NCBI RefSeq assembly: GCF_902827225.1
Contig: NZ_LR792632.1
Span: forward strand, 887,030-951,029
Direction of reading: 5' to 3'
DNA length: 64,000 nt
Source: Methanocaldococcus lauensis
Lineage (GTDB): Archaea > AGJL01 > Methanococci > Methanococcales > Methanocaldococcaceae
How positions within the stretch are numbered: position 1 is the first letter of the stretch; each line of letters begins with the position of its first letter. The notes beneath the pieces were generated by a model. That model was not told the origin of the DNA and made no database searches. It was given only the letters and a program-made list of their open reading frames with translations. The position numbers and the translations under genes are program-made. This document shows positions 14,763 to 20,573 of this stretch, piece by piece.

Positions 14763-14801
14763 TATTAAAATTAGAATTTAAAATTATTATGGGTGAAAAT
14801 T

Positions 14802-17800
14802 ATGAAAGATATTTTAAAGAGAGTTTCTGATGTAGTTTGGGAATTACCTAAAGGTTATAAAGATTGTATGAGAGTTCCTGGAAGAATATATTTAAATGAG
14901 ATTCTTTTAGATGAGTTAGAGCCAGAGGTTTTAGAGCAAGTAGCCAATGTTGCATGCCTACCTGGAATTTATAAGCATTCTATAGCCATGCCTGATGTGC
15001 ATTATGGATATGGATTCTGCCTTCACCCTGATGCAAAAGTATTAACTGAACATGGTTTCTACTATAAAATAAAAGATTATGAAAACTTAAAAGATGAAAA
15101 AGTTAAGGTTTTCAATACAGAAGACAAAAAAATAGAAAATACAGATGTTGAAAGGTTCTTTAAATTAAAACCTTATTGTAAAGTTTATAGAGTTAAAACT
15201 AAATTAGGATATGAAACAATAGCCACAGAAGACCATCCTTTCTATACACCAAATGGAATGATAGAACTTAAACACTTAAAGATTGGTGATTCTATAGGAA
15301 TTTATCCATTTGAGGGAATTGAATATGAAGAACCTTCAGATGAAATAATTATTGATGAAAATTCCATAGTAGAATGTATGGAAAAATTGAATTTAAGTGA
15401 AAAGAGTAAAGAAATCATTTTAAGAAAACTAAAAGAGAAAGAATTAATTCCATTAACCTACAACCATAAAAAATTGCCTTACTTATTGAAAATTATGGGC
15501 TTTATCTTTGGAGACGGCTCTATGAACTTCATAGGAAAAAGAAAAGATGGAATAATTCAATTCTCTTCAAAAAATCCAAATGACTTAGAGGAGATTAGAA
15601 AAGATATTATAAAATTAGGATACACTCCTTCAAAAGTTTATGAAAAGGATAATTGCTACTTCTTTGTAGTAAATTCCACAAGTTTATTAGTTTATCTCTA
15701 TACTTTGGGAGTTCCAATAGGAAATAAGACATTAAAAGAATATGAGTTCCCAGAATGGATATTCAAATGTAAATTATGGCAGAAGAGATTGTTCTTAGCG
15801 TCATTCTTTGGAGCAGAGTTGAGAAAACCATATCCAAGAAAAGATAGAAAAGCCCTCTTTACATTCCCAACATTAGAGATGGCTAAAGATTTAAAAATTA
15901 AAGAAGATGCTTTAAAATTCTTAGGAAATATTGTCAAATTGTTAAGTGAATTTGGTATTGAAGCAACAATTAAAAAGAGAAATTCAACACACAAAAGAAA
16001 AGATGGTGTAGAGACAGTTAGATATGTTTTAACAATAAATGGAACTCCTAAGAACTTAATAAATCTATGGTCTAAGATTGGCTATGAATACAATAGAGAG
16101 AGACAAGAACTCGGATGTTATGCAGTGGCATATTTAAAGTATAGAGAAAGAGAAATAAATAGAAAAAAAGAACTCGTAGAAAAAGTAAAAGAGTTATTTG
16201 AAAAAGGAAAAAAACCTTCAGAAATTATAAAACTATTAAATGTAGATAAATCTGATGAAAGATTTGTCAAAGATGTTTGGAATAAATTGAAAAATGGAAA
16301 AGATATTAATGAGATAAGAATTTCCTCAAAATTCCCAAGATTTGAAGAATTCATTAAAGAAAAAAAGGTTGGGGATGGACTAATTTGGGATGAGATTGAA
16401 AGTATAGAGGAAGTTGATGATATAGAGGAGGTTTATGACTTTACTATAAATCACAAAGACCACAACTTTATAGCAGATAACTTCTTAGTTTCAAATTGTA
16501 TTGGAGGAGTAGCAGCTTTTGACATAAGGGAGGGGGTTATAAGCCCTGGAGGGGTAGGTTTTGATATAAATTGCCTTACTCCAGACACAAAAATATTAAC
16601 AGAAGACGGATATTTCATAAAATTGGAAAAACTAAAAGAAAAATTAGATTTAGAGATTAAGATTTATAACACAGAAGAAGGAAAAGAAAAATCCTCTAAT
16701 ATATTATTTGTTTCTGAAAGGGATGCAGAAGAAAAAATAATAAGAATAAAAACAGAATCTGGAAGAATCTTAGAAGGTAGTAAAGACCATCCAGTTTTAA
16801 CATTAAATGGCTATGTTCCAATGGGTATGCTAAAAGAAGGAGAAAATATAATAGTTTATCCATTTGAAGGAGTTGAATATGAAGAACCTTCAGATGAAGT
16901 AATATTAGATGAAAAAGATTTTGCAGATTGTGATAAACAAATTATAAAATATCTAAAGGATAGAGATTTATTACCATTTAAAATGAACGATAGAAATATT
17001 GGAATTATTGCAAGGTTGTTGGGCTTTGCTTATGGAGATGGAAGTATAGTTAAAGAGAAGGGAGGTAAATTATATTTAGCATTCTATGGAAAGGAAGAGA
17101 CACTTATTAAAATTAAAGAAGATTTAGAGAAATTAGGAGTAAAATCTTCAAAAATATATTCAAGGAAGAGAGAAATTGGAGATGAATATACAAGTTTATG
17201 TGAAGACAACTATATAAAAATAACTTCAAAGGCTTTTGCATTGTTTATGCATAAATTAGGAATGCCAATTGGTAAAAAGACAGAGCAAAAATATAATATT
17301 CCAGAGTGGATAAAGAAGGCACCAAAATGGGTAAAGAGGAATTTCTTGGCTGGTTTGTTTGGAGCAGATGGAAGTAGAGTAGTGTTTAAAAACTACACAT
17401 CATTGCCAATAAATCTAACAATGTCAAAGAGTGAAGAGTTAAAAGCTAATATTTTAGAGTTTTTAAATGAGATTAAACTCTTGTTGAAAGAGTTTGAAAT
17501 TGAAAGTGTGATTTATGATATAAAATCATTAGAGGGAAGAGTTTCATATAGATTAGCAATTGTTGAAGAAGAGAGTATAAGACACTTCTTAGGAAAAATA
17601 AACTATGAATATTCAGAAGAGAAGAAAGTTATTGGATTATTATCTTATGAATACTTAAAGAAAAAGAATGCTATAAAAGAGATAAGAAGGAAATGTATTG
17701 AAAAAGCAAAAGAACTATATGAAGAAGGATTAACTATTTCAGAAATTTTAAAAATGGATGAATTTAGAAATGAGTTTATAAACAGGAGGTTAATAGAAAG

Positions 17801-20573
17801 AGCAATATATGGAAAATTAGACAGAGAGGATGTAAGGGTTTCAACAAAATTCCCAAAGTTTGAAGAATTCATTAAAAAATATGGAGTTAAAGGAGGATTT
17901 GTAATAGATAAAATAATAAAAATTGAAGAGATTCCTTACAAATCAAAGTTATATGATGTTGGAATTGTAAGTAAGGAGCACAACTTTATAGCAAATAATA
18001 TAGTTGTTCATAACTGTGGAGTTAGATTAATAAGAACTAATTTAACAAAAGATGAAGTAGAACCGAAAATAAAAGAGCTTATAAAAACATTATTTAAAAA
18101 TGTCCCTTCTGGTTTAGGTAGTAAAGGAATTGTTAAGTTCAGTAAGGGAGTTATGGATGATGTTTTAGAAGAGGGTGTTAGGTGGGCTGTTAGAGAGGGT
18201 TATGGTTGGAAAGATGATTTAGAGTTTATTGAAGAAAATGGATGTATGAGAGAGGCAGATTCTTCTTATGTATCAGACAAGGCAAAAGAAAGAGGTAGAG
18301 TTCAGTTAGGTAGCTTAGGTAGTGGAAATCATTTCTTAGAAGTGCAATATGTTGAGAGAGTATTTGATGAAGAAGCGGCAGAAGTTTATGGAATAGAGGA
18401 AAATCAAGTTGTTGTTATGGTGCATTGCCTACCGGAAGATGCAAAAATAATGACTGAATATGGATATTATATAAAGATTAAAGATTTAGAAAACTGTTAT
18501 GATAAAGTTAAACTTCTAATCTATGACAAAGAAAATAAAACATTAATTCCAGCAAAAATTAAAAAGTTTTGGAAATTCAAAAATAATAAGAAAATATATA
18601 AAATAAAAACTTTCACTGGAAAAGAACTTATTTGCACAGAAGACCATCCAATATGGACGCCCTCAGGATGGAAACAATGTAAAGATTTAAAAATAAATGA
18701 TTTAGTCTTAATATATCCATTTGAAGGTGTTGAGTATGAAAAACCAGACGATATTACAATAGTAGATGAAGAAGATATTATTAATGCAGGGGGAACTCCA
18801 AGAATGATTAAAAATCTAAAGAAAAAAGGATTACTACCTCTAAAATTAAACCATGAAAAGATAGGAATTATTGCAAGATTGGTAGGATATGCCATTGGTG
18901 ATGCATGGGTAGGTGGAAAAAGACCAACAGTTAAATTTATTGATAATTTAGATGTATTAAATGAAATAAAATCTGATTTGGAAGAGTTGGGCTTTTCATC
19001 AACATTAGTAAAATTAAAGAAACATAAATCAGAAATAACTCACATTAATAGTAGTGGAGACCTAATAAAGCATAATTTTGAGGGAGAAGGATATCAATTA
19101 GTAGTTAGAGCCCCATCCTTTGCCATATTCCTAAAAGCATTAGGAGTTCCATATGGTAAAAAATCAGATATTCCATTCTCTGTCCCAGAATGGATAAAAC
19201 AAAGTCCAAAATGGATAAAAAGATTGTTCTTAGCTGGATACTTTGGGGCTGAAATGAATATTATTAGTCCAAGAAAAAATGAACCATATAGAGTAGAAAA
19301 CCTAAAAGTATCTTTAAACAAAGTTGAGGATTTAGTAGATAATGGAATTAAATTTATGGAAGAAATTAAACAATTATTAGAAGAATTCGATATTAAAGGA
19401 AGTATCTATGTAAAACCATACACCAAAAGAAAAGATGGAAAAACAAGTTATAAAATAATACTAAAATTGAGTGGAAAAATAGATAATGTTATAAAATTTG
19501 CAAGTAAAATTGGATACGAATACAATAAGAAGAGACAGTCAATGCTAATGAAATCATTACAATATTACATATACAAGAAAAAAATTATAAAACAAGAGTC
19601 AATTGAAACTGGAATAAGTGAAAAAAAATTACTAATAACTTCATACAAATATAGGAAAACAAAAATGGAGCAATTTGACACATATATATCAAAGTATTCT
19701 AACGGGGACTTAACCTTATGGGATATTGTAGTATCAGTAGAAGAAGTTAAAGAAAACATAGATATAGTTTATGATTTAACAATAGATAACGAAAATCATA
19801 ACTTCATTGCAAATAATTTCATAGTTAGTAATACAGGTTCAAGAGGGCTTGGACACCAAATCTGTACAGATTATTTAAGAATTTTAGAGAAAGCAGCTAA
19901 GAACTATGGAATAAAGTTGCCAGATAGACAATTGGCATGTGCTCCATTTGAATCAGAAGAAGGACAGAGTTACTTTAAGGCAATGTGCTGTGGAGCAAAC
20001 TATGCATGGGCAAATAGGCAGATGATTACACACTGGGTTAGAGAGAGCTTTGAGGAAGTATTTAAAATACATGCTGAGGATTTAGAAATGAGTATAGTGT
20101 ATGATGTAGCTCACAACATTGCCAAAAAAGAGGAACACATAATAGATGGAAAAAAAGTAAAGGTTATAGTTCATAGAAAAGGAGCTACAAGGGCATTCCC
20201 TCCAAAGCATGAGGCGATTCCAAAAGAATATAGAGATATTGGACAACCAGTATTGCTTCCAGGAGACATGGGAACTGCATCATATTTAATGAAAGGAACT
20301 GAAATAGCTATGAAAGAAACATTTGGTTCAACAGCTCATGGAGCAGGAAGAAAATTGAGTAGAGCAAAGGCATTAAAGCTATGGAAAGGTAAAGAAATTC
20401 AAAGAAAATTGGCTGAAATGGGAATTATCGCATTGAGTGATTCAAAGGCAGTATTGGCTGAGGAAGCTCCAGACGCATATAAAAACATAGACTTAGTCGC
20501 TGATACATGCCATATAGCAGGAATATCTTTAAAAGTAGCAAGAATGAAGCCATTAGGAGTTATTAAAGGATAA
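14802..20573 (+). CDS. rtcB: RNA-splicing ligase RtcB precursor with three inteins
   Basis: A 1923-residue precursor. Removing three inteins leaves a normal 480-residue RtcB, in extein blocks of 72, 25, 137 and 246 residues. RtcB joins 2',3'-cyclic phosphate or 3'-phosphate RNA ends to 5'-hydroxyl ends in tRNA splicing and RNA repair, using Mn2+ and GTP. The spliced numbering coincides with that of P. horikoshii RtcB: Asp95 and Cys98 (GFDIN/C), His203 (GSGNHFLE), His234 (VMVH/T), the AHNIA histidine, and the GMP-accepting His in [12 protein letters not shown]. The start at 14802 follows GGGTGA; the GTG at 14793 overlaps that site. Splicing of all three inteins is required for activity. Confidence 0.95.
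15018..16496 (+). mobile_element. RtcB intein 1 with LAGLIDADG homing endonuclease (493 aa)
   Basis: It begins at Cys ([14 protein letters not shown]) after GYGF and ends [12 protein letters not shown], with Cys as the +1 extein residue (CIGGVAAF). Block B is TEDHPFY. Dodecapeptide blocks [14 protein letters not shown] and [13 protein letters not shown] keep their acidic residues, so the endonuclease may be active. The penultimate residue is Ser instead of the usual His. RtcB homologues normally have Pro (GYGFPIGG) at the position occupied here by Cys73. Confidence 0.93.
16572..18014 (+). mobile_element. RtcB intein 2 with LAGLIDADG homing endonuclease (481 aa)
   Basis: It begins [15 protein letters not shown] and ends [12 protein letters not shown] with Cys +1, which is the metal-binding Cys98 of RtcB ([10 protein letters not shown]). 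The penultimate His is standard. Block B is SKDHPVL. Endonuclease blocks [15 protein letters not shown] and [14 protein letters not shown] both retain Asp. The insertion site splits the DxxC metal motif. Confidence 0.94.
18426..19832 (+). mobile_element. RtcB intein 3 with LAGLIDADG homing endonuclease (469 aa)
   Basis: It begins [15 protein letters not shown] directly after metal ligand His234 and ends [12 protein letters not shown], with Thr as +1 residue (TGSRGLGHQ). Block B is TEDHPIW. Endonuclease blocks [15 protein letters not shown] and [13 protein letters not shown] retain the acidic positions. The penultimate residue is Ser, as in intein 1. Confidence 0.93.

Follow-up and report, generated by a model that had tools for sequence, protein, structure and literature searches.

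The window analysed here, a stretch of 64,000 nucleotides from Methanocaldococcus lauensis, carries on its forward strand an rtcB gene with three inteins in frame, referred to in the following as a, b and c. The open frame at 14802-20573 encodes 1923 amino acids and runs without interruption from the ATG at 14802 to the stop codon at 20571-20573; an in-frame GTG lies upstream of this ATG, at 14793. The intein junctions were set against rtcB genes from the same genus that lack inteins. The gene is composed as follows:

14802..15017, + strand: N-extein, RtcB residues 1-72, ending in HYGYGF (by comparison with intein-free rtcB and with RtcB of Pyrococcus horikoshii, PhRtcB)
15018..16496, + strand: intein a, 493 aa, with C1, block B TEDH, VSN end and then Cys at +1 (GYGF/a/CIGGVAA); two LAGLIDADG motifs of 12 residues each
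16497..16571, + strand: extein between sites a and b, 25 aa (CIGG...GFDIN)
16572..18014, + strand: intein b, 481 aa, with C1, block B SKDH, VHN end and then Cys at +1, which is Cys98 (DIN/b/CGVR); two LAGLIDADG motifs of 12 residues each
18015..18425, + strand: extein between sites b and c, 137 aa (CGVR...VVVMVH, the last residue being His234)
18426..19832, + strand: intein c, 469 aa, with C1, block B TEDH, VSN end and then Thr at +1 (VMVH/c/TGSRG); two LAGLIDADG motifs of 12 residues each
19833..20570, + strand: C-extein of RtcB, 246 aa (TGSRG...GVIKG), followed by the stop codon at 20571-20573

Joining of the exteins gives exactly 480 residues. These align over their full length with PhRtcB (residues 5-481, E ~1e-206, gaps of single residues only) and end to end with intein-free relatives, thus bearing out the claim of a sequence-only reading that the exteins rebuild a continuous RtcB. 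The number of inteins, their three lengths and the size of the ligase given in that reading were exact, and the three quarters of the gene that it ascribed to inserts correspond to 1443 of the 1923 residues, or 75% of the coding length. On the complete protein, Pfam recognises four RtcB pieces, three Intein_splicing stretches and, in two stretches, LAGLIDADG_3. Two NCBIfam families of intein-containing RtcB family proteins, NF038162 (2519 bits) and NF052663, match as well; because their models measure 961 and 626 aa, each can describe RtcB with one intein only.

Site a lies 75 nt upstream of site b, and site c 411 nt beyond b. The metal and catalytic ligands of RtcB (Asp95, Cys98, His203, His234, His329 and His404 in P. 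horikoshii numbering, PMC10630183) are all aligned in the extein and identical to those of PhRtcB. Cys98 directly follows intein b and His234 directly precedes intein c, and both residues bind manganese in the active site (PMC10630183). Because sites b and c adjoin these ligands, the unspliced precursor, with its metal site split apart, should be inactive. A PF01139 search found no second RtcB elsewhere in the genome, and rtcB is therefore single-copy; together with the position of sites b and c, this strongly implies that active ligase would need all three splicing events. The genome holds one gene for archease, the usual partner of RtcB.

As listed above, every intein combines C1, a block B motif, a terminal Asn and a Cys or Thr at +1. 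A penultimate His is present in b (HN) and missing in a and c (SN), with every allele agreeing. This residue is common in inteins and not obligatory, so that the SN ending of a and c does not bar them from being inteins. The two LAGLIDADG motifs of each intein contain their acidic residues. Splice and LAGLIDADG residues are kept in all alleles of a and c that we compared, and in all alleles of b except a degenerate one. With dN/dS values of about 0.1-0.4 in the endonuclease regions of all three inteins, the endonuclease domains are under purifying selection. The degenerate allele, from another genome (G008), is an intein b of only 367 aa whose two LAGLIDADG motifs have both lost their acidic residues (GNG, GAIG), while its splice residues are intact; its endonuclease is in decay.

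The fold was predicted for intein c, using a six-row alignment of the inteins of the window and of strain SG1. The AlphaFold model (mean pLDDT 83, pTM 0.85) found as its best Foldseek match the TliVMA intein (7qss, E 1.1e-17), and the closest solved structures were the homing-endonuclease inteins TliVMA, PhoVMA and PI-PfuI. Whole-chain TM-scores were only about 0.30-0.37 with large rmsd, and therefore the relative placement of the domains probably differs; the Hint part alone superposed on mini-inteins at 1.3-2 Å. Intein c is thus predicted to adopt a Hint-plus-homing-endonuclease fold.

The three inteins are related to one another. BLAST comparisons gave 285 bits for a-b, 279 for a-c and 248 for b-c, as against at most about 70 bits for any other intein of the same genome compared with a, b or c. 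In the tree, a, b and c fall together with the RpoA' intein of another genome (G004) and the RFC-3 inteins into one clade (support 100/99) apart from the other inteins compared; the clade is recovered from the endonuclease part alone (100/99) and from the splicing part alone (89/81). On this tree, the family must have moved anciently between non-allelic sites. AU tests of a grouping of the RtcB inteins that excludes RpoA' and RFC-3 neither supported nor rejected it (p 0.17-0.40). Relatedness of this kind is not general in multi-intein genes, since neither the three RFC inteins of G004 nor the two PolB inteins group by gene. The RFC inteins of G004 are mutually unrelated, and the third of them belongs to the RtcB intein family. 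For haloarchaea, movement between non-allelic sites has been judged rare, the evidence supporting no more than a single event (PMC4071816), which makes a gene with three related inteins a useful exception.

Two possible routes between the sites were rejected. Firstly, protein identity between a, b and c is about 36-39%, compared with 51-98% between alleles at the same site, so the repeats within the gene reflect homology at this level and not a recent intragenic duplication. Secondly, likeness of target DNA as a route for hopping found no signal among the three sites, where 9-12 of 30 bases match, compared with 8.8 in the background (P 0.15-0.54). A distantly related intein was also observed outside the methanogens, in a haloarchaeon: a plasmid of Natrinema thermotolerans (CP031304.1) has an intein of 477 aa inserted at site b of its rtcB, near an archease gene, and the endonuclease of this intein groups with those of methanogen site-a inteins (98/96).

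To describe occupancy, 36 genomes of the order were sampled, 34 of which have a recognisable rtcB. Site a is filled in eight of these, site b in 13 and site c in four, and 19 have no intein; the count for b includes G029, scored as occupied although its gene lies split between contigs. All three inteins occur in the genome of the window (G000), in strain SG1 of the same species (G005, LR792634.1), in a sister species (G009) and in a member of another family (G034), whose sister G035 has none of them. Sites a and b are both filled in six genomes. Within the clade of G000, G005 and G009, a further genome (G010) has a and b with an empty c site, and in G002 all three sites are empty. Occupancy in other Methanocaldococcus, a comparison already named in the sequence-only reading, is thus patchy and ranges from none to a+b+c. 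As a separate observation, the reading frame of rtcB in G012 appears shifted by one base some three codons ahead of site b, either through a sequencing error or as a real inactivation.

The inteins also differ in age. Silent divergence among G000, G005 and G009 is 2.0-2.9% in c, 7-11% in a, 6-11% in b and 15-21% in the exteins (c versus exteins, Fisher p 8e-13 to 3e-17); silent rates may differ between inteins and exteins for reasons other than age, and the difference between c and a or b in the same gene argues otherwise. Because of this low silent divergence, we take intein c to have spread very recently between these relatives, as the last arrival in the lineage. Extein sequence up to 60 aa away from site c has a silent divergence of 16-20%, as high as that of the remaining exteins, so c would have moved with little flanking DNA. 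No carriers of b or c were found in the viral contigs searched, and none of c in the phages searched.

One could suppose that the inteins have been domesticated and kept, with RtcB being activated through splicing only when redox state, metals or temperature are suitable. The metal ligands abutting sites b and c (PMC10630183), the lack of a second RtcB copy and the conditional splicing documented for RadA of a hyperthermophile (PMC5790916) would fit such regulation. However, the absence of c in G010 and of all three inteins in G002, among close relatives, speaks against it, as do the selection on the endonuclease domains and the recent spread of c. Patchiness, endonuclease selection and recent spread are what selfish homing predicts, and we consider regulation improbable.

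A second alternative is that all three inteins were passed on as a block, by inheritance or transfer of the filled gene, with other lineages having lost inteins. That c is always accompanied by a and b, in four of four genomes, would agree with this. Against it stand the different ages of the three inteins within the same genomes and the trees of inteins a and b, which conflict with the extein tree. Between G034 and the Methanocaldococcus alleles, silent divergence is 24% in a compared with 45% in the extein, and 19% in b compared with 40% (p ~1e-9), i.e. the a and b inteins of G034 are Methanocaldococcus-like; the stretch of 25 extein residues that separates them matches the intein-free sister G035 and is thus native to the genus of G034. 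In the case of c, the split between G034 and G000 is not detectably younger than that of the hosts (silent 35% versus 40%, p 0.18). Altogether, the differing ages, the conflicting trees and the native extein indicate that repeated single homing events, rather than delivery as a block, would have stacked the inteins, and block transfer appears very unlikely to us. The same history is in agreement with Haloferax experiments, in which two inteins home poorly together and doubles arise by invasion of singly occupied alleles (PMC10643990). Finally, repeated segments make a misassembly conceivable, but a frameshift or an assembly error (both named as refuting in the sequence-only reading), including a chimera or a collapsed assembly, and a pseudogene can be dismissed, given the same structure in the independent genomes G005/SG1, G009 and G034, the lack of stops and the strong purifying selection on the exteins.

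It is therefore very probable, in our assessment, that a single-copy rtcB was invaded at three positions next to the active site by related endonuclease-bearing inteins, stacked by separate homing. Translation would give the 1923-aa precursor, from which each class 1-type intein would excise by an acyl shift at Cys1, transfer to the Cys, Cys or Thr at +1 and cyclisation of Asn. Splicing would release three free endonucleases along with the 480-aa ligase. The target of each endonuclease is probably confined to its own site in the intein-free state, where repair of the cut would copy the intein in. The three inteins would represent one subfamily whose moves between sites took place long ago, and separate homing events would later have assembled a, b and c in one gene, with c coming last.

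Empty sites may in part be resistant to such homing. In the genus, +1 at empty site a is mostly Pro or Ala, and at occupied site a it is always Cys; Pro and Ala cannot serve splicing because neither is a splicing nucleophile. Cys at +1 of an empty site a was considered as a scar of intein loss and rejected, as the intein-free rtcB of G014-G017, from another genus of the order, also has Cys. In the case of site c, the empty allele of G010 carries silent substitutions relative to the c-bearing genomes of its clade at +3, +9, +10 and +12, counted from where the intein inserts (ACA GGT TCA AGA GGG to ACG GGT TCC CGT GGG), and its CGT is the only CGN codon for Arg among the eight rtcB exteins checked. 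This makes it a candidate homing-resistant allele, a single case from a draft genome. A wider reading, in which one lineage hopped within rtcB to fill the three positions near the active site, with offshoots to rpoA' and rfc, and G010 escaped renewed invasion by c because its silent changes had made the site resistant to cleavage, is possible and, to our mind, rather doubtful.

Site a resembles the Haloferax MCM-a and MCM-d system of neighbouring inteins, where Pro at +1 of empty alleles blocks splicing and co-conversion is needed (PMC10643990): Pro or Ala stands in many empty alleles and Cys in every occupied one. Unlike the MCM pair, RtcB has three sites, in hyperthermophilic methanogens, with a and b only 75 nt apart.

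Three-intein genes are already known, in the same genus and elsewhere. RFC of Methanocaldococcus jannaschii contains three inteins (PMC1635734), and a three-intein RFC was also found in G004; it is likewise one housekeeping gene, yet its inteins come from three different groups with 20-62 bits between them, unlike the mutually similar RtcB inteins. The polB of Haloquadratum walsbyi has three HEN-bearing inteins (PMC10643990) and so shares with rtcB three large inteins that all have endonuclease domains, in a different host gene. The three inteins in one gene are real, and their description as unusual in the sequence-only reading was overstated in view of these precedents and of the three other genomes with the same triple rtcB. 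We found no report of a three-intein RtcB in the literature covered, most subscription journals lying outside it. NF038162 and NF052663 likewise describe RtcB with an intein.

As far as checked, new aspects are the one shared family of a, b and c, its ancient moves between sites, the recent spread of c and the cluster of silent changes at the c target in G010, the closest relative lacking c. Relatedness of the inteins, recent spread of c and the graded alleles raise the value of the system moderately. One genus offers, in the same protein, a natural series of none, a, b, a+b and a+b+c, which allows tests of intein stacking, of whether inteins can spread to further sites within one host, and of resistance by silent changes or by the +1 residue.

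Two further observations concern exchange of DNA around the sites. Intein b of G007, a Methanocaldococcus, and of G029, from another family, share a different C-half of the endonuclease and are flanked by FDISC in place of FDINC, which suggests a cross-family transfer with co-conversion of the flank. In addition, the N-extein (14802-15017) is nearly identical at silent sites between G000 and G005 (dS 0.02, against 0.3-0.5 in the rest of the extein), which suggests that this segment forms a separate recombination tract.
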